From NCBI GenBank assembly GCA_016213265.1, contig JACRBA010000070.1:1-64000 (forward strand): a stretch of DNA of 64,000 bases, written 5' to 3'. Positions 20,395-32,148 of this stretch are shown here, one piece after another (positions within the stretch are counted from its first letter, which is position 1; each line of letters opens with the position of its first letter). The position numbers and the translations under genes are program-made. Origin of the DNA: Burkholderiales bacterium. Its GTDB lineage: Bacteria > Pseudomonadota > Gammaproteobacteria > Burkholderiales > Burkholderiaceae_C. Under the pieces are notes generated by a model, which saw nothing but the letters and a program-made list of their open reading frames with translations, was not told where the DNA came from and searched no databases.

Positions 20395-20778
20395 ATGGCG
20401 CGCCGCACCCTGCCCCGGACGATCGCCGCATGGCTGGCCATGTGGGCGGTGCTGCTGCCCGTGTGGGCGCCGGTGGCGTCGCAGGCCATGGGCGGGCCGG
20501 CCGCACCGGGCGCGCTGGTCGAGATCTGCAGCGCCTCCGGCACGCGCTGGGTGGCGGTGGATGCCAGCGAGGACGCGGGCTCCACGCTGCCCGCCCAGGC
20601 CGCGGCCGACTGCCCCTACTGCCTGCATCCGCTGCTGGGCCTGGCCCCGCCCACCTGGGCGCTGGCCCTGCCCAGCCCCGTGGCGGCGCCCCCTGCGCCG
20701 CCCGCCGCGGGCGAGCCGCCGGTCATTCGCCACGGCTGGTCGCCCGCCGCACCCCGCGCCCCACCGGCCACGGCCTGA
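20395..20778 (+). CDS. DUF2946-like small exported protein with DCPYC motif
   Basis: TM/signal segment, QAAADCPYCLHPLLGL; directly upstream of a TonB receptor. Confidence 0.7.
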   Translation: MARRTLPRTIAAWLAMWAVLLPVWAPVASQAMGGPAAPGALVEICSASGTRWVAVDASEDAGSTLPAQAAADCPYCLHPLLGLAPPTWALALPSPVAAPPAPPAAGEPPVIRHGWSPAAPRAPPATA

Positions 20779-20975
20779 ACCGGGCGGCGCACGGCGCGCA
20801 CAGCGCGGCCGTGACCGCCTGGCGTCCGCCGCCGGATCCGCCCTGGCCCGCTGCTGCGGGCGGGCGCATCCCTTCTGTTTCTGCGGCCGGCCGGCCCGTG
20901 GCGGCCGCTGCCTGCGCGCGCTGAGCGTGCGGGCAGCGCCTGCGCGGCCGGACGGCCAGGCCGTCGCTTCCTTCC

Positions 20976-23258
20976 ATGACAGTCCTCTCTCTCGGTGCCG
21001 CCCTGCTGGGTGCGGCCAGCAGCGCCATGCCCGCTGCGAACACGGCCGACACGGCCCCCGTGCAACGTGTCGTCATCACCGGCTCCACCATCGACGATCG
21101 CTTCGGCGAGAACCGGCGGGAGCCGTCCTCCACCACCACGCTGTCCGGCCGCAAGGTCGAGGCCGAACACGCGGAGAACCTCGTGCAGGTGCTGCGCGCG
21201 CTGCCCGGCGTCACCATCGACAGCCAGGGCGGCGACGACCTGAAGATCAAGTTCCGCGGCGTCGAGAACCAGCGCTACATGGGCGAGAAGCCTGGCGTGG
21301 CCATCGTCATCGACGGCGTGCCGGTGTTCGAGCGCACCGGCAAGGTGAACATCAACCTCGACAACATCCAGAGCATCAAGGTCATCAAGGGCGGGGCCTC
21401 GTACCTGTTCGGTGAGGATGCCCTGGCCGGTGCCGTGATCATCACCACCAAGCGCGGCGCGGCCAGCACGACCGGCGCGCTGGAGGCGGACGGCGGTGCC
21501 TACGGCTACCAGCGCGGGCTGGCCCGGCTGGGCGGCGCGGGCGAGGCGCTCTCGGGCCACCTGCAGCTGAGCGACCGCCGCGCCGACGACTACCACTTCC
21601 AGTCGCGTTATGCCACGCAGTCGGCGGCCGGCCACCTGCGCTGGTCCCCGCTGGCGGACGCCGAGCTGGCCCTGGGCGTGGAGGTGGACGACCGCTTCCG
21701 CGACAAGCACGGCACCGTCACCGGCATCACCCAGGCGGCCGACGACCCGCGCGGCGAGTTCGGCCGCGACTACGCCCGCCATTTCGACGTGGCCCTGCAG
21801 CGCGTGAACCTGACCTGGTCGCAGGACCTGGCGGCCATGGGCCAGCTGCTGGCGCTGGGCTACGAGTACACCGACCACACCGTGTTCTGGAGCGCGCCGC
21901 AGCGCTTCAGCGACACCGGTGCGCCCGTGACCGCGGGCGACGCCTACACCACGCTCAACGACTACCACCAGCGCCAGCGCGGCGTGAAGAGCGAATGGCG
22001 CCACAGCGCAGGCCCGCTGGCCGTCATGCTGGGCGGCGAGCTCAAGCGCAACCGCTACCTCAACCTCACCACCGCGAAGGTGGCCTACCGCAACAGCCCC
22101 ATGGGCCCGGTGGTGCCGGCCGGCACGGTGATGGGCGACGACGCCACGCAGGAGCGCGTCCACGCCCTGTACACCGAGCTGAAGTGGTCGCCCCAGCCGG
22201 CGTGGACGCTCACCGGCAACCTGCGCCATGACCGCATCGGGCTTGACTACACGGCCGAGCCGGTGGACGGCAATGGCCGCGTGGCCATCGACGAAAGCAA
22301 GGCCTTCGCGGCCACGAGCTGGCGCCTCGGGGCCGCCTGGACGCCCACGGACGAGCTCAGCGTGTTCGCCAATGCGTCCACCGGCTTTCGCGTGCCCACG
22401 GTCGACCAGCTCTACCGCGGCAGCCAGAACCCGTCGGGCGGCGTGGCCAACAACCCCGACCTGGCGCCCGAGCGTGCCACCAACCTCGAGCTGGGCGTGC
22501 GGCACCTGTTCGACGCCGGCGGGCAGCGCCTGTCGGTGGAAGCGGCCGTGTTCCAGATCGACCGCCGCGATTTCATCCTCGACACCAACGGCCAGTACGG
22601 CAGTGGCGACGGCGTCACCGTGGCCCGCTACGAGAACATCGGCGGGGCCCGCTCGCGCGGGCTGGAGCTGGCGCTGCACGGCGCGCCCACCGAGGCGCTG
22701 GGCTGGGACCTCAGCTACACCTACCTCGACGCGGTCTTCACCCGCTACGACCACTTCAACCTGGCACTCGGCAACCCGCGCGGGCGGCCCGTGGGCAGCC
22801 CCGGCTGCCCGGTCGCCGCGCCCGACTGGAACGCCTGCTACACCGTGGTGGGCTACCGCAACACCGGCCGCTCGCTGCCGCGCGTGCCGCCGCACACCCT
22901 GAACGCGCGGCTGAACTGGCAGGCCCCCGGCGGCTGGCGCCTGTGGGGCGAGGTGGACCACCGGGCCACGGCCTGGGCCGACGAGATCAACCAGGAGAAG
23001 TGGCCCGGCCGCACCCTGCTGAACCTGATGGCCGAGTACGGCAGCCGCCTCCCGTGGGGGCAGGGCGTGCGCCTGACGGCCTTCGTGCGCGTGGACAACG
23101 CCACCGACGAGCGCTTCTACACCATCGCCCGCGGCACCAACGACGCGCAGAGCTACGCCACCGGCTTCCGCTACGACGGCGTGTACAACGCCGAGGATCT
23201 CTCGCTCACCGTCGACCCGGGCCGCGTCTGGCGCGCCGGGCTCGCGCTGCGCTTCTGA
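20976..23258 (+). CDS. TonB-dependent receptor
   Basis: Plug ENLVQVLRALPGVTIDSQGGDDLKIKFRGVENQRYMGEKPGVAIVIDGVPV...; barrel C-terminus WRAGLALRF. Confidence 0.96.
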   Translation: MTVLSLGAALLGAASSAMPAANTADTAPVQRVVITGSTIDDRFGENRREPSSTTTLSGRKVEAEHAENLVQVLRALPGVTIDSQGGDDLKIKFRGVENQRYMGEKPGVAIVIDGVPVFERTGKVNINLDNIQSIKVIKGGASYLFGEDALAGAVIITTKRGAASTTGALEADGGAYGYQRGLARLGGAGEALSGHLQLSDRRADDYHFQSRYATQSAAGHLRWSPLADAELALGVEVDDRFRDKHGTVTGITQAADDPRGEFGRDYARHFDVALQRVNLTWSQDLAAMGQLLALGYEYTDHTVFWSAPQRFSDTGAPVTAGDAYTTLNDYHQRQRGVKSEWRHSAGPLAVMLGGELKRNRYLNLTTAKVAYRNSPMGPVVPAGTVMGDDATQERVHALYTELKWSPQPAWTLTGNLRHDRIGLDYTAEPVDGNGRVAIDESKAFAATSWRLGAAWTPTDELSVFANASTGFRVPTVDQLYRGSQNPSGGVANNPDLAPERATNLELGVRHLFDAGGQRLSVEAAVFQIDRRDFILDTNGQYGSGDGVTVARYENIGGARSRGLELALHGAPTEALGWDLSYTYLDAVFTRYDHFNLALGNPRGRPVGSPGCPVAAPDWNACYTVVGYRNTGRSLPRVPPHTLNARLNWQAPGGWRLWGEVDHRATAWADEINQEKWPGRTLLNLMAEYGSRLPWGQGVRLTAFVRVDNATDERFYTIARGTNDAQSYATGFRYDGVYNAEDLSLTVDPGRVWRAGLALRF

Positions 23259-23267
23259 GGGGTGGCC

Positions 23268-26200
23268 ATGACACGACACATTCGCGTGTGGCTGCTGCTG
23301 TGCCTGTGGGCGCTGGCTGGCGGCGCGGCGCAGGCCATGGACAAGGTGGCCGTGCTGTCCACCCGCTTCGTGCTCGAACGCAAGTTCCAGCTGATAGAGG
23401 AGGCGGCGCGCGAGCGCGGCGTGCAGCTCGCCTGGACCCAGGTGGACCGCGACGGCGAGGCCGGCGTGCGCCGCGCGCTCGATGGCGCGCGGCTGGTGGT
23501 GGTGGACGCGCCGCGTGGCGACGACCAGGCGCAGATCGAGCGCGTGGCCGGTGCCCTGCTGCGCGAGCGCGCCCTGCCCACCGTGGGCATCCATGTGATG
23601 AGCCCGCCCGGCCGCCTGCGCGCCCAGCAGATCGACGGTGCGCAGGCGCAGCGCCTGTTCGACTACTGGGTCGGCGGCACCCGGGCCAACCACGAGCGGC
23701 TCGCCGCCTACCTGCGCACCTGGCTGGACGGAGGCGACCTGTCGGCGACGGCGGGCCCCGTGCCGCTGCCCGCCAGCGGCATCTACCACCCCGCGCAGGC
23801 ACAGGCCGTGGCGGCGACGCTGCCGGACTACCTGGCGTGGTGGGCGGGCCATGCCGGCAGCGCCTGGCAGGGCCGGCCGGTGGTGGCGATGGAGATCAGC
23901 AGCAGCTACCTGGCCGACGGCCAGACGCGCATGCTCGACGACACCATCCAGGCGCTGGAGCGCGCGGGTGCGGTGCCCCTCGTCTTCTACCGCGGCACCC
24001 GCGCACAGCGGCCGCGCGCGGCGAGGGCCGCGGACGCGCCGGTGCGCGACGAGGCCCTCGACGAGCCGCTGCTGATGCTGCACGGGCGCCTGCTGCCGCA
24101 GGTGATGGTGGTCAACACCTTCCTCGGCACCGACCCCGAGGCGCGTCGCGCCTGGCACCGCGCGATGGGCATCCCGGTGATCAACCTGCTGCACTACCGC
24201 ACCGGCGACCGCGGCCAGTACGCCCGCGACACCGCCGGCGTGAGCAGCTTCTACCTGCCCTTCACGCTGACCAGCGCCGAGTACATCGGCCTGCAGGACC
24301 CCGTGCTGCTCACCACCAACGAAGGCGGCGAGCTGGTGCCCCTGCCCGAGCAGATGGACCTGCTGGTGGGCAAGTGCGTGCGCCTCGCCCGCCTGGCCAT
24401 GGCGGCGAACGCCGACAAGCGCGTGGCCCTGCTGTTCTGGAACCACCCGCCGGGCGAGAAGAACCAGGGCGCCTCGCACCTGAACGTGCCGCGCTCCATC
24501 GAGCACGTCGTGGCGCGCCTGCGGGCCGAGGGCTACGCCTTCGACGCCGTGAGCGAGGCCCGGGTGATCGATGCAGTCGCGCAGATGCTGCGCCCGGCGT
24601 ACCGCCACGATGGCCTGGGCGCGTTGATGCAGACGCCACACTGGGATTTCCTGCCCCTGGCGGCCTACCAGGCGTGGCTGGACGGTCTGCCCGCGGCGGT
24701 GCGCCAGCGCATCCTGGACCGTTGGGGGGCGCCGTCGACCAGTGCCTACTTCGCGCACTGGGCGGGAGAGCCGGGCTTCGTGCTGCCGCGCATGCGGCTG
24801 GGCCGGCTGGTGGTGATGCCGCAGATGTCGCGCGGCGAGTCCATGGCCATGGAGGACGAGAAGAAGCTCTTCCACGACAACCAGGTGCCGCCCAACCACG
24901 CCTACCTGGCGCAGTACCTGTGGATCCGCACCCAGTGGCGGGCCGACGCCATCGTGCACTTCGGCACCCACGGCACGCAGGAGTGGACGCCCGGCAAGGA
25001 GCGTGGCCTGTGGGCCTACGACGACCCGAACCTGCTGGTGGGCAACGTGCCCGTCATCTACCCCTACATCGTCGACAACATCGGCGAGGCGGTGCATGTG
25101 AAGCGCCGCGGCCGCGGGGTGATCGTCAGCCACCAGACGCCGGCCCTGTCGCCGGCGGGCCTGTCCGACGACCTGGTGCAGATCCTCGATGCGATCCGCG
25201 AACACGGCGCGGTGGACGAGGGCCCGGTGAAGGAGGCCGCGCGCCAGCGTGTGATCGAGCTCGCGCTGAAGATGCAGCTGCACCGCGACCTGCAATGGGA
25301 CCGCGCGCCCGCGCCGGGCGGCGGCCAGGCGCCCGCGCCGGGCCCGGCCGAGATGGCCGCGCGCATCGGCGCCGAGTTCCCGCGCTTCCTGCGCGAGCTG
25401 CAGGACCACCTGGAGGACCTGAGCGCGGCGCAGCAGCCGCTCGGCCTGCACACGCTGGGCCGCGATGCCGAGCCCGCGCACCTGGCCAGCACGGTGATGC
25501 AGATGCTGGGCCAGCCGTTGTATGCGCACTTCGGCTTCCGCAACGCCCAGGCGGTGTTCCTGGGCGACTACCGGCAGGTGCAGCAGTCGGCGCCGTACCG
25601 GTTCGTGCAGGCGCACGTGCTGGGCGATGAGCCGCTGCCGCCGTCCGCCGACGACGCGCTGCGCGCCCTGGCCGAGCAGGGGCGGCGCCATGCGGCCAAC
25701 CTGCGCGCCGAGCGCGAGGTGGACGGCCTGCTGCGCGGGCTCGCCGCGCGCTGGATCGACCCCAGCTACGGCGGCGACCCGGTGCGCAACCCCGACGCCC
25801 TGCCCACCGGCCGCAACATGTACGGCTTCGACCCCGGGCGCGTGCCCACGCCCGCGGCCTACGAGGCCGGCGCGCAGGCCGTGGACCAGCTCGTGCGCAG
25901 CTACCAGCAGACCCACGGCGGCCGGTTCCCCGACAAGCTCGCCTTCAGCATGTGGAGCACCGAGACCATGCGCCACCTGGGCATGCTGGAGGCGCAGGTG
26001 CTGTGGGCGATGGGCGTGCGGCCGGTGTGGGACGCGGGCGGCCGCGTCACCGGCATGGAGGTGGTGCCGCTGGCGCAGCTGGGCCGGCCGCGCATCGACG
26101 TGGTGATCTCGCTGACCGGCCTGTACCGCGACCAGTTCCCCAACGTGATGGAGCGCTTCAACGAGGCCATCGGCCTGCTCGCGCGGGCCGACGAGCCGGC

Positions 26201-27380
26201 GTCGCAGAACCCCATCCGCGCGAACACCGAGCGCATCCGCGAGGCGGTGATGCGCCGCGGCGTGGCCGCCGACGAGGCCCAGGAGCTGGCGTTGACGCGC
26301 CTGTTCGGCAACGAGAGCGGTGACTACGGCACCAAGCTGCCCGACGCCACCCTGGCGTCGGACCGCTGGGACGAGGGCGACGGACGCCTGCAGGCGCTGT
26401 ACCTGTCGCGCATGGGCTGGGCCTACGGGCCCGACCCGGCCCGCTGGAGCCGCCGCTACACCGACGCCCAGGGCGCCCCGGTGGACGCCTACGCCGAGCA
26501 CCTGAAGGGCACGCGCGCGGCGGTGTTCTCGCGCTCGTCCAACCTGCGCGGGCTGCTCGACACCGACCACCCCTTCGAGTACCTGGGCGGCATCTCGATG
26601 GCGGTGCGCCACCTCGACGGGCAGGCGCCGCCGCTCTACATCAGCAACATGCGCGACCCGCAGCGCGCGAAGCTGGAGACGGCCGAGCGTTTCCTGGCCA
26701 ACGAGCTGCGCGCGGTGTACCACCACCCCGGCTGGCTCACCGAGATGAAGAAGGAGGGCTATGCCGGCACGCTGCAGCTGCTCAACACCGTGAACAACTT
26801 CTGGGGCTGGCAGGTGATGGACCGGCAGGTGGTGCGCGACGACCAGTGGCAGGCCTTCCACGACACCTACGTGCGCGACCGCCACCAGCTGGGCCTGCGC
26901 GAGTGGTTCGAGCGCAGCAACCCCACCGCCCTGGCCCAGGTGGCCGAGCGCATGCTGGAGGCGATCCGCAAGGGCTACTGGCAGGCCGACGAGGCCACCC
27001 AGCGCGAGCTGGTGCAGACCTGGACGGAGATCGCCGCCCGGCACGACGTGCACACCAGCAACCAGGCGTTCCAGGCGCACGTGGCCCGGCTCGCCGCCGG
27101 CTACGGCCTGGGCATGCCATCGCCTTCAGGCGCGCGCCCCGCGACGCCCGCCGCCCCCCGCCCCGCCACGGCGCCGCGGGCCGCCGCCATGCCGCCCCCG
27201 GCGGCCCCGCCATCGCCCGCGCCCACGCCCGACACCGTGGAGCGCGGCCAGCAACTGCGCGAGGTGCCGCTCGCGCGCCACGTGCAGCGCCTGGTCTGGG
27301 CCTATGGCTGGCTGATCGCCGCCGTGGTGCTGGCCGGCCTCGGGTGGCAGGCCTGGCGCACCCGCCGTGAACTCGACTGA
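23268..27380 (+). CDS. Secreted, C-terminally membrane-anchored CobN/BchH-like metallochelatase large subunit homologue
   Basis: Signal peptide MTRHIRVWLLLCLWALAGGAAQA; CobN-type core HFGTHGTQEWTPGKERGLWAYDDPNLLVGNVPVIYPYIVDNIGEAVHVKRRGRGVIVSHQTP; Pro/Ala linker then TM helix LVWAYGWLIAAVVLAGLGW. Confidence 0.92.
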   Translation: MTRHIRVWLLLCLWALAGGAAQAMDKVAVLSTRFVLERKFQLIEEAARERGVQLAWTQVDRDGEAGVRRALDGARLVVVDAPRGDDQAQIERVAGALLRERALPTVGIHVMSPPGRLRAQQIDGAQAQRLFDYWVGGTRANHERLAAYLRTWLDGGDLSATAGPVPLPASGIYHPAQAQAVAATLPDYLAWWAGHAGSAWQGRPVVAMEISSSYLADGQTRMLDDTIQALERAGAVPLVFYRGTRAQRPRAARAADAPVRDEALDEPLLMLHGRLLPQVMVVNTFLGTDPEARRAWHRAMGIPVINLLHYRTGDRGQYARDTAGVSSFYLPFTLTSAEYIGLQDPVLLTTNEGGELVPLPEQMDLLVGKCVRLARLAMAANADKRVALLFWNHPPGEKNQGASHLNVPRSIEHVVARLRAEGYAFDAVSEARVIDAVAQMLRPAYRHDGLGALMQTPHWDFLPLAAYQAWLDGLPAAVRQRILDRWGAPSTSAYFAHWAGEPGFVLPRMRLGRLVVMPQMSRGESMAMEDEKKLFHDNQVPPNHAYLAQYLWIRTQWRADAIVHFGTHGTQEWTPGKERGLWAYDDPNLLVGNVPVIYPYIVDNIGEAVHVKRRGRGVIVSHQTPALSPAGLSDDLVQILDAIREHGAVDEGPVKEAARQRVIELALKMQLHRDLQWDRAPAPGGGQAPAPGPAEMAARIGAEFPRFLRELQDHLEDLSAAQQPLGLHTLGRDAEPAHLASTVMQMLGQPLYAHFGFRNAQAVFLGDYRQVQQSAPYRFVQAHVLGDEPLPPSADDALRALAEQGRRHAANLRAEREVDGLLRGLAARWIDPSYGGDPVRNPDALPTGRNMYGFDPGRVPTPAAYEAGAQAVDQLVRSYQQTHGGRFPDKLAFSMWSTETMRHLGMLEAQVLWAMGVRPVWDAGGRVTGMEVVPLAQLGRPRIDVVISLTGLYRDQFPNVMERFNEAIGLLARADEPASQNPIRANTERIREAVMRRGVAADEAQELALTRLFGNESGDYGTKLPDATLASDRWDEGDGRLQALYLSRMGWAYGPDPARWSRRYTDAQGAPVDAYAEHLKGTRAAVFSRSSNLRGLLDTDHPFEYLGGISMAVRHLDGQAPPLYISNMRDPQRAKLETAERFLANELRAVYHHPGWLTEMKKEGYAGTLQLLNTVNNFWGWQVMDRQVVRDDQWQAFHDTYVRDRHQLGLREWFERSNPTALAQVAERMLEAIRKGYWQADEATQRELVQTWTEIAARHDVHTSNQAFQAHVARLAAGYGLGMPSPSGARPATPAAPRPATAPRAAAMPPPAAPPSPAPTPDTVERGQQLREVPLARHVQRLVWAYGWLIAAVVLAGLGWQAWRTRRELD

Positions 27381-27404
27381 CCTTCCTTCTGATCGGAGCT
27401 TTCC

Positions 27405-27896
27405 ATGAATGCCCTTGAATCCCTGCTCTACGAGACCTCCAAGTTCTTCCTCACGCCCGTGCTGGTGCTGCTGTGCGCGATGTTCGTGTATGCCTTGTTC
27501 GCGCTCGGCGCCTTCGTGCTGGACCTGGCGCTGCGCCGCGTGGGCGGCGCTGGCCGGCAGCCGCTGGCGGCCTTCCGCCGTCGCCATCCCGACAGCCACG
27601 CCGCCGCGGTGGAGCTGCACCTGCTGAAGCTGCTGGAGCCACTGCGCATCGTCAGCCGGGTGGCGCCCATGCTCGGGCTGGTGGCGACCATGATCCCCAT
27701 GGGGCCGGCGCTGGTGGCGGTGTCGTCCGGCAACGCACAGGGCATCGCCCAGAACCTGGTGGTGGCCTTCGCCGCCGTGATCGTGGCGCTGATGGCCGCG
27801 GCCATCACCTACACCGTGCTGTCGGTGCGGCGCCGCTGGCTGCTGGCCGAGCTCAACGCGCTCATGCACACCGCGCCGGAGGTGGTCCATGGCTGA
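27405..27896 (+). CDS. MotA/TolQ/ExbB proton channel family protein
   Basis: LEPLRIVSRVAPMLGLVATMIPMGPALVAVSSGNAQGIAQNLVVAFAAVIVALMAAAITYTVLSVRRRW. Confidence 0.93.
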   Translation: MNALESLLYETSKFFLTPVLVLLCAMFVYALFALGAFVLDLALRRVGGAGRQPLAAFRRRHPDSHAAAVELHLLKLLEPLRIVSRVAPMLGLVATMIPMGPALVAVSSGNAQGIAQNLVVAFAAVIVALMAAAITYTVLSVRRRWLLAELNALMHTAPEVVHG

Positions 27897-28233
27897 CCGG
27901 CTGCTCGACGGCATCCTCGACGACGACGACGGCGACGACCCCATCCTGTCGGTGGTGAACCTCGTGGACGTGTTCCTGGTGGTGATCGCCGTGCTGCTGA
28001 TCGCGGTGCTGGAGAACCCGCTCAACCCGTTCCAGACGCAGGACGCCGTGGTCATCAAGCACCCCGGCCAGCCGCACATGGAGATGCTGGTCAAGCAGGG
28101 CACCGAGCTGCGCCACTACAAGGCGAGCGGCCAGATCGGCGAAGGGCAGGGCCAGAAGGCCGGCACCGCCTACCGCCTGCAGGACGGCAGCATGGTGTAC
28201 GTGCCCGAAGCGGCGGCGAGCGCCGCACGCTGA
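27889..28233 (+). CDS. DUF2149 family membrane protein (ExbD/TolR-like TM helix)
   Basis: DDDDGDDPILSVVNLVDVFLVVIAVLLIAVLENPLNPFQ; overlaps the ExbB-like stop by 8 bp. Confidence 0.88.
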   Translation: MADRLLDGILDDDDGDDPILSVVNLVDVFLVVIAVLLIAVLENPLNPFQTQDAVVIKHPGQPHMEMLVKQGTELRHYKASGQIGEGQGQKAGTAYRLQDGSMVYVPEAAASAAR

Positions 28234-30325: not shown

Positions 30326-31783
30326 TCACAGCACCTTCGAGAAGCGCGCCCGGTCCTGGCTCGTGCGCAGGTGGCGGTCGAACACCATGGCGATGGCGCG
30401 CACGAGGTACCAGCCCGCGGGCGTGACCTCCAGGCCTTCGGCGGTCAGCCGGACGAGGCCCGCGCCGGCCATGGCCTGCAGCTCGGCGAGCTCCGTGGCG
30501 AAGGTCTCGGCGAAGCGGATGCCATGGCGAGCCTCGACCGCCTTGCAGTCCACACGGCCCTGGCACATCACCGCCATGATCACCTCGCGGCGCAGCCGGT
30601 CGTCGGCCGTGGTGGCATAGCCGCGCACGACGGGCAGCCGGCCCGCCTGCAGTGCCTCGTAGTAGCCCGGCAGCGTCTTGTCGTTCTGGTAGAACCGGCC
30701 GGCCACCTGGCCGATGGACGACACGCCGAGTGCCACCAGGTCGCGGTCCGACTGCGTGCTGTAGCCCTGGAAGTTGCGATGCAGCCGGCCCTCGCGCTTG
30801 GCCTCGGCCAGCGCGTCGTCGGGCAGGGCGAAGTGGTCCATGCCGATGTAGTCGTAGCCGCTGGTCTGCAGCGCAGCCAGGGCCCCGCCGAGCATGGCGA
30901 TGCGGTCGGGTGGCGGCGGCAGGTCGGCATCGTGGATGCGGCGCTGCGGCTTGAAGCGTGTGGGCAGGTGCGCATAGGCGTACATCGCCAGTCGGTCCGG
31001 CCGCAGTTCCACCATCTGCGCGATGGTGCGCGCGAAGCTCTCCGGCGTCTGCCGGGGCAGGCCGTAGATCAGGTCGGCGTTGATGCTCACGTAACCCAGC
31101 TCGCGCGCCGGCGCCATCAGGCTGCGCACCATGTCGAGCGACTGCACGCGGTGCACGGCCTGCTGCACGTCGGCGTCGAAATCCTGCACGCCGAAGCTCA
31201 GGCGGTTGAAGCCCAGGGTGCGGAAGTGCGCCAGGCGCTCGGCCGTCACCGTGCGCGGGTCCACCTCGATGGACACCTCCGCATCGGGCTGCAGCGTGAA
31301 CACGCCGCGCAGCGCCGCCATCACGCGAGTGAGTTCCTCGTCCAACAGGAAGGTGGGCGAGCCGCCGCCGAAATGCAGCTGGCTCACCGGGCGGCCATGG
31401 CCGATGCGCGCGCCCACCAGGCCCAGCTCGATCTCCAGGTGGTCCAGGTACTCGGCGGCGCGCTCGTGGTGCTTGGTGATGATCTTGTTGCAGGCGCAGT
31501 AGTAGCAGAGCTGCTCGCAGAAGGGGATGTGCACGTACACCGACACCGGCTGCGCCATGGCGGGGTCGGCGGCGGCGAGCGCGTCCAGCGCGGCGGACGC
31601 GTCGTCGGGGCCGAAGGCGCTGCCGAAGCGGTCGGCCGTGGGGTACGACGTGTAGCGCGGGCCGGGCGTGTCGAACTGCCGCAGCAGCGCCTCGGTGAGC
31701 TCGGCCGGTGCGGCGGGGCGCACGGGCGCGGCGGGGTGGGAGGCGAGGGGGCAGGCGGTGGCTTCCATGGCGTGATGCTGCAT
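30326..31783 (-). CDS. hemN: Oxygen-independent coproporphyrinogen III oxidase
   Basis: VYVHIPFCEQLCYYCACNK radical-SAM motif; DTPGPRYTSYPTADRF; YFQN-type HemN C-terminus. Confidence 0.97.
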   Translation of the reverse strand: MQHHAMEATACPLASHPAAPVRPAAPAELTEALLRQFDTPGPRYTSYPTADRFGSAFGPDDASAALDALAAADPAMAQPVSVYVHIPFCEQLCYYCACNKIITKHHERAAEYLDHLEIELGLVGARIGHGRPVSQLHFGGGSPTFLLDEELTRVMAALRGVFTLQPDAEVSIEVDPRTVTAERLAHFRTLGFNRLSFGVQDFDADVQQAVHRVQSLDMVRSLMAPARELGYVSINADLIYGLPRQTPESFARTIAQMVELRPDRLAMYAYAHLPTRFKPQRRIHDADLPPPPDRIAMLGGALAALQTSGYDYIGMDHFALPDDALAEAKREGRLHRNFQGYSTQSDRDLVALGVSSIGQVAGRFYQNDKTLPGYYEALQAGRLPVVRGYATTADDRLRREVIMAVMCQGRVDCKAVEARHGIRFAETFATELAELQAMAGAGLVRLTAEGLEVTPAGWYLVRAIAMVFDRHLRTSQDRARFSKVL

Positions 31784-31802
31784 TTGCGCGGCACCTTTGC
31801 GC

Positions 31803-31816
31803 TTGACGGCGGTCAA
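31803..31816. promoter_or_regulatory. FNR/Anr-type box upstream of hemN
   Basis: TTGAC-GGCG-GTCAA perfect palindrome (FNR consensus TTGAT-N4-ATCAA), about 20 bp before the hemN ATG. Confidence 0.65.
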
Positions 31817-31865
31817 GCGGTGGGCCAAGGGGTGCGTTTTCGCGCCGGCTCGGCTAGGATGGCCG

Positions 31866-32090
31866 CCGTGCAGGAGAGCGAGCGCCCCGCCACCCGCGGG
31901 CCGCTTCCACCGAAGGCGCACTCTCCCATGAACGCTCAGGTTCCGTACTGCACCCCATCACACGCCGTCTGGAGAGACTTCACCGCCCCGGGGCCATGGC
32001 CACCGACAAGCGGTGAGGCACCGAAGGAGCAAGGCGCACGGCCGGGTGGCTGGCGCTGAATCTCTCAGGTTCCCGGGACAGAGGGAGCGG
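31866..32090 (+). ncRNA. Tandem glycine riboswitch (two aptamers)
   Basis: Aptamer 1: GCAGGAGAGCG...CCGAAGGCGCA...GCTCAGGTTCCGTACTGC; aptamer 2: GGAGAGAC...CACCGAAGGAGCAAGGCGCA...TCTCTCAGGTTCCCGGGACAGAGGG. Confidence 0.88.
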
Positions 32091-32148
32091 CATCGCACAG
32101 GCAGCCCGAGCCGGGCTGCACTGTGCCGTTCCCTCTGGAGATACCCCT

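Follow-up and report, generated by a model that had tools for sequence, protein, structure and literature searches.

A 64,000-nucleotide (nt) stretch of a Burkholderiales genome (GenBank assembly GCA_016213265.1, contig JACRBA010000070.1, positions 1 to 64,000; "the window") contains an operon of five co-directional genes. These encode a small DUF2946 protein, a TonB-dependent receptor, a secreted homolog of the class I chelatases CobN and HmuS, an ExbB-like protein, and a DUF2149 protein. Here, we describe the operon and its relatives, and the reasons for thinking that its metal is probably copper. A first-pass annotation of the window had recognized five co-oriented genes at 20395-28233, and all five open reading frames (ORFs) were confirmed there by their coordinates, strand and Pfam matches. 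The features are:

20395..20778, + strand: DUF2946 protein, 127 amino acids (aa), with CruR features (PF11162, 54.7 bits)
20611..20622, + strand: codons of the CXXC (CPYC) motif, from motif spacing in the DUF2946 ORF
20755..20766, + strand: codons of the RAPP arrest motif, from motif spacing in the DUF2946 ORF
20779..20975, + strand: 197-nt gap from the CruR-like ORF to the receptor gene, from the coordinates
20976..23258, + strand: TonB-dependent outer-membrane receptor, 760 aa (PF00593, 194 bits; PF07715, 65 bits)
23262..27380, + strand: secreted CobN/HmuS-like class I chelatase homolog, 1372 aa (PF02514, 963 bits)
24969..24971, + strand: H570 codon, in HFGTHG, equivalent to HmuS catalytic H538 (alignment to HmuS)
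26568..26579, + strand: H1103..E1106 codons, in DTDHPFEYLGG, equivalent to HmuS H1209/E1212 (alignment to HmuS)
27405..27896, + strand: ExbB/TolQ-like inner-membrane protein, 163 aa (PF01618, 27.8 bits)
27889..28233, + strand: DUF2149 protein, 114 aa (PF09919, 96.9 bits)

The Pfam matches of the five ORFs are far above chance, that of the ExbB-like protein to PF01618 being weak yet above the cut-off. The small gaps or overlaps that the first-pass annotation described are found from the receptor gene to the DUF2149 gene: the receptor/CobN-like genes are 3 nt apart, the CobN-like/ExbB-like genes are 24 nt apart, and the ExbB-like/DUF2149 genes overlap by 8 nt. The description does not extend to the DUF2946 gene, which is the sole member set apart from the nearly contiguous other four. 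The gene 5' of the DUF2946 ORF ends 47 nt ahead of the DUF2946 start.

The main new point concerns this first gene, which, judged by its motifs, carries the marks of the copper-sensing leader ORF CruR. In Bordetella pertussis, the copper-responsive upstream regulator (CruR) ORF encodes a signal sequence, a CXXC motif, and a RAPP motif near the C-terminus, with a spacing of 45; a 162-nt gap precedes the TonB receptor gene, and Rho terminates transcription there when copper is present (PMC9426467). The DUF2946 protein likewise has a hydrophobic signal segment (residues 10-28), CPYC at residues 73-76, and RAPP at residues 121-124, i.e., PF11162 together with a CXXC and a C-terminal RAPP motif ~45 residues apart. 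The exact spacing is 44 residues, with three residues following RAPP. The 197 nt ahead of the receptor gene match the long gap that precedes copper-type genes; as for a Rho-termination signal, the gap contains 83 C and 77 G, a weak excess of C over G. The window and the B. pertussis CruR-CrtA(BfrG)-PepSY_TM locus (PMC9426467, PMC12914433) share a DUF2946 leader with CXXC and RAPP, a long gap, a TonB receptor gene, and the lack of a Fur site, whereas the window has a CobN-like/ExbB-like/DUF2149 module in place of the PepSY_TM protein. The likeness of the window receptor to CrtA is one of gene position and is not established by sequence; no CrtA entry was among the receptor's PDB matches, and no direct comparison of the two was made. 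The receptor has only weak siderophore, heme or CirA matches in NCBIfam and the PDB, which give no hint of the ligand. A literature search combining CruR or copper with CobN found no paper joining them.

The chelatase homolog is named cobaltochelatase CobN by NCBIfam (NF004644). Its ORF starts with GTG, and the ATG at 23268 yields the signal peptide that the first-pass annotation had quoted; hydropathy also places a C-terminal transmembrane (TM) helix at residues 1342-1360 counted from that ATG. The closest PDB sequence match is HmuS (9d26, 416 bits), ahead of ChlH (345 bits) and CobN (339 bits). A separate CobN is encoded on another contig (C70) of the same genome, in a CobU-CbtB-CbtA-CobB-CobO-CobW-CobN-CobD cobalamin cluster, and CobT (PF06213) was not found at the genome level in this 89.9% complete assembly. 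By these sequence criteria, the window protein is extracytoplasmic and is not a cobaltochelatase, given its signal peptide and C-terminal TM helix, HmuS as its best solved relative, and the separate cobalamin-cluster CobN of the genome. This agrees with the localization first proposed. Compared with the aerobic cobaltochelatase CobNST, the PF02514 fold is shared, but the window protein is secreted and has an H-E rather than a D-Q active-site pair. Structure prediction against HmuS and CobN had been proposed as a check. The AlphaFold model has a class I chelatase fold (mean predicted local distance difference test score 78, predicted TM-score 0.63), but Foldseek does not separate HmuS (E 1e-58) from Mycobacterium tuberculosis CobN (E 1e-57), with a root-mean-square deviation of about 16 Å.

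Cobalt or B12 was rejected as the cargo: an Rfam scan found no B12 riboswitch and no other Rfam match close to the operon, cobalamin synthesis has its own CobN, and cobalt is hard to remove from corrins.

The active site differs between clades of CobN-like proteins. In the window protein, HFG(T/A)HG and DHxxE motifs are present, and H570, H1103 and E1106 align with HmuS H538, H1209 and E1212, residues whose roles, like those of the heme ligands, are taken from PMC12583661. The HmuS site-1 heme ligands M79/H254 are absent, with VVVDAPRG and VVNTFLGTD at these places, as is the Met-rich domain IV insertion (127 residues here between two aligned blocks, 275 in HmuS). A maximum-likelihood tree, from which Pseudomonas aeruginosa PA1923 was left out, places the window in clade A (21 rows; Shimodaira-Hasegawa-like approximate likelihood-ratio support 100), beside the alphaproteobacterial-type clade C and away from the large clade B. 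The HmuS catalytic residues are retained in 29/29 clade A rows. The catalytic pair is H/E in clades A and C (29 and 6 rows) and, without exception, D/Q in clade B (52 rows); where aligned without gaps, the cobalamin CobN of the same genome has D/Q too. Comamonas granuli and Oryzomicrobium have both clade A and clade B copies, which suggests divided functions. Clade A taxa include methane and ammonia oxidizers, organisms that rely on copper enzymes.

Several loci show features of their own. Three (L043, L044, L045) belong to a divergent CobN-like clade with GRHSTYEF replacing GTHG; in these, additional genes (~189, 204 and 430 aa) separate the receptor gene from the CobN-like gene. On an Azospirillum brasilense plasmid (L048), clade C CobN-like/ExbB-like/DUF2149 genes lie near nikR, an FmdE-family gene, an iron ATP-binding cassette permease gene and a receptor gene, which hints at nickel. 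In two methanotroph loci (L057:16243-19569 and L060:4665-8258), a cassette of DUF4198, NapH-like Fer4_5 and HGD-D (2-hydroxyglutaryl-CoA dehydratase-like) genes lies next to the clade A operon on either side and may be an electron supply. The clade A CobN-like gene of Nitrosomonas europaea (L072:9920-14018) is split over three frames, by frameshifts or assembly errors; that of N. eutropha (L058) is one intact ORF.

Regulatory signals differ between the clades. No Fur, Zur, NikR, CueR, CsoR or ModE box was found in the window promoters. A uniform scan of receptor promoters (p <= 0.02 per locus) found Fur boxes in 18/45 clade B loci, Zur boxes in 3/5 clade C loci, and neither in any of 19 clade A promoters. 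CruR-type ORFs lie upstream in 9/26 clade A loci vs 0/62 other loci (Fisher p = 5e-6, uncorrected for kinship); at L074, one of these nine loci, the distance is ~7.9 kb. Clade A has the CruR-type ORFs, clade B the Fur boxes and clade C the Zur boxes; from these sequence signals, the regulating metal appears to follow the CobN clade: copper (A, including the window), iron (B), and zinc (C). The first-pass annotation had held the substrate to be undeterminable from sequence. The CruR-like first gene, together with a clade distinct from the Fur- and Zur-linked ones, now favors copper over heme iron or zinc. Copper control of the operon is moderately well supported by these signals, and because the small first gene bears the sequence marks of a known copper sensor, the operon's metal is probably copper rather than heme iron or B12 cobalt.

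A palindrome, TGYGACAATTTGTCRCA, lies ahead of the receptor and/or CobN-like gene in AT-richer clade A members; no site with >=13/15 matches was found in 1.46 Mb of other loci. Thiomicrorhabdus has three perfect sites, one at the orthologous receptor gene, shared with a divergent gene for a PCu(A)C copper chaperone, and two flanking the ExbB-like gene on another contig. In Nitrosomonas, the palindrome precedes the receptor and CobN-like genes, as well as CopC, TonB, MauG-type, receptor and extracytoplasmic function (ECF) sigma factor genes.

Counts of the 17-bp palindrome, made for N. europaea (L072), N. eutropha (L033/L058), L065 and their genomes, gave 18-26 forward matches per Nitrosomonas genome (<=2 mismatches) vs 0-4 for a reversed control; most of the forward matches precede TonB receptor, ECF sigma, TonB, CopC and MauG genes.

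The last two genes of the operon resemble an ExbB/ExbD-type stator pair. The ExbB-like protein has three hydrophobic segments and a P-x-LGL-x-x-T motif, and matches the ExbB profile with a modest score (hhalign E=1.3e-4). DUF2149 has a single TM helix, in which N24 and D27 are invariant, followed by a predicted beta domain; D27 is invariant in 40/40 DUF2149 proteins and aligns with the proton-site Asp of ExbD, again with a modest score (hhalign E=7e-4, probability 26%). In its single TM helix with an invariant Asp, DUF2149 resembles ExbD/TolR. A survey of DUF2149 neighborhoods in a 300-genome sample of the order found the conserved arrangement that the first-pass annotation anticipated, with 19 of the 20 DUF2149 regions retrieved adjoining a CobN-like gene. 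Conversely, almost every CobN-like gene has the ExbB-like/DUF2149 pair beside it. Class I chelatases require an ATP-driven partner (CobS/T or ChlI/D), and the periplasm is without ATP; a proton-driven stator would therefore be the simplest replacement. The ExbB-like/DUF2149 pair could plausibly serve the periplasmic CobN-like protein as its proton motor.

The first-pass annotation did not distinguish this pair from an energizer of the receptor, and a variant energizer, as proposed for HmuU/HmuV and PA1924 (PMC12583661, PMC4542158), is the alternative that survives best, unlikely as we consider it. The homology of the pair to ExbB/ExbD fits such a role, as does the presence of a receptor gene nearby in 62/64 well-covered loci. 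However, these receptors come from many families, the window's type occurring in only 12 loci (all of the window's CobN-like clade, 45-69% identity), while the pair stays with the CobN-like genes; in a Comamonadaceae plasmid locus (L047), the pair accompanies a CobN-like gene with no receptor near. A TonB C-terminal domain is lacking in both proteins of the pair, and 10 further ExbD/TolR matches lie elsewhere in the genome. More than 12 loci have a canonical ExbB/ExbD pair close by. In several of these, including Hydrogenophaga, Comamonas and Acidovorax, a full ExbB-ExbD-TonB set lies between the receptor and CobN-like genes, besides the ExbB-like/DUF2149 pair; because such loci hold the pair too, it is unlikely to be the receptor's energizer. 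DUF2149 is also present in Methanosarcina acetivorans, an organism without an outer membrane.

In the reading that we favor, with a probability of roughly one half, the operon is a copper-repressed metal-acquisition system that comprises a CruR-like switch, import by the receptor, periplasmic de-chelation, and a proton motor. Without copper, RAPP in the DUF2946 leader would stall the ribosome, and the downstream genes would be transcribed; copper on the leader CXXC would relieve the stall and turn the operon off. Under copper limitation, the receptor would bring a copper chelate, its ligand perhaps a tetrapyrrole or a comparable chelator, into the periplasm. There, the CobN/HmuS-like protein, with its C-terminal helix as the inner-membrane anchor, would receive the chelate in its class I chelatase cavity, where H570 with H1103/E1106 would remove the metal. 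This would be the de-chelation chemistry of HmuS with another metal, and is plausible from the aligned residues. The ExbB-like/DUF2149 pair would act as a proton-driven stator that cycles the CobN-like protein and stands in for the ATP-driven CobS/T or ChlI/D. The operon would then probably belong to the Hmu/PA1922-1925 kind as a variant headed by a copper switch, and would serve to take up copper and release it from its chelate in the periplasm.

Several observations weigh against this copper-acquisition reading. CruR-type ORFs are found in only a minority of clade A loci (the 9/26 above), and two alphaproteobacterial examples keep RAPP but have CPFS or CPFA for CXXC. The Nitrosomonas TGYGACAATTTGTCRCA regulon, in which TonB receptors and ECF sigma factors are numerous, is not purely copper-related and may respond to iron. 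The palindrome is not present in the window and therefore backs copper only via relatives. In addition, the metal regulating a system need not be the metal transported. For the motor, the DUF2149-ExbD link spans a 24-column TM match, and a Foldseek search with the predicted beta domain, a model of moderate confidence, found no solved ExbD/TolR match (no PDB match with E <= 0.001).

The first-pass annotation likened the operon to the Hmu loci of Bacteroidota and to a zinc-responsive Pseudomonas cluster; hmuRSUV and the Zur-regulated PA1922-1925 indeed share its core. The resemblance to hmuYRSTUV (PMC12583661) is close enough to raise heme-iron uptake, in which the receptor would import heme and a proteobacterial HmuS would release Fe(II). 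The receptor, extracytoplasmic CobN-like protein, ExbB-like protein and DUF2149 are common to both, HmuS is the top PDB match, and the catalytic residues are conserved. Nevertheless, we think this improbable, since the heme ligands and Met-rich insert are missing, no hmuY or hmuT lies between the operon genes, Fur boxes are absent from the window and the 19 clade A promoters, and a CruR-like leader ORF stands where iron-type regulation would be expected. It is less probable still that the CobN-like protein inserts metal, or merely stores it or passes it on. The superfamily includes the insertases CobN and ChlH, and Foldseek rates HmuS and CobN alike, but the active site is HmuS-type, CobT was not found in the genome, and the protein is linked with a receptor for metal acquisition and with a switch that responds to copper starvation. 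Least probable is zinc acquisition like that of P. aeruginosa PA1922-1925, whose genes (receptor, CobN-like, ExbB/ExbD-like, unknown; PMC4542158) form the same four-gene core in a proteobacterium but are Zur-bound and induced 45-147-fold in a znuA mutant (PMC4542158, PMC8531726), i.e., under zinc control and metal starvation, whereas the window and clade A promoters lack Zur boxes, and the Zur-linked loci found belong to another clade.

Little is known of how bacteria acquire copper. Most CobN-annotated proteins outside cobalamin clusters are without an assigned function (PMC12583661). The ties of clades to copper, Fur and Zur switches, together with the fixed active-site differences, suggest an explanation of metal choice in the superfamily that can be tested, and the motor reading would explain how a class I chelatase could run in an ATP-free compartment. 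Tentatively, and with less confidence than for the operon itself, the proteins may form a family of proton motive force-driven periplasmic de-chelatases, in which an ExbB-like/DUF2149 stator replaces the AAA+ partner, with Fur iron, Zur zinc and CruR copper clades, the window representing copper.

Two neighboring features of the window show no sign of a link to the operon: a gene for HemN (oxygen-independent coproporphyrinogen III oxidase) on the - strand at 30326-31921, 2 kb away, and a glycine riboswitch (RF00504, 44.5 bits) on the + strand at 31959-32091.

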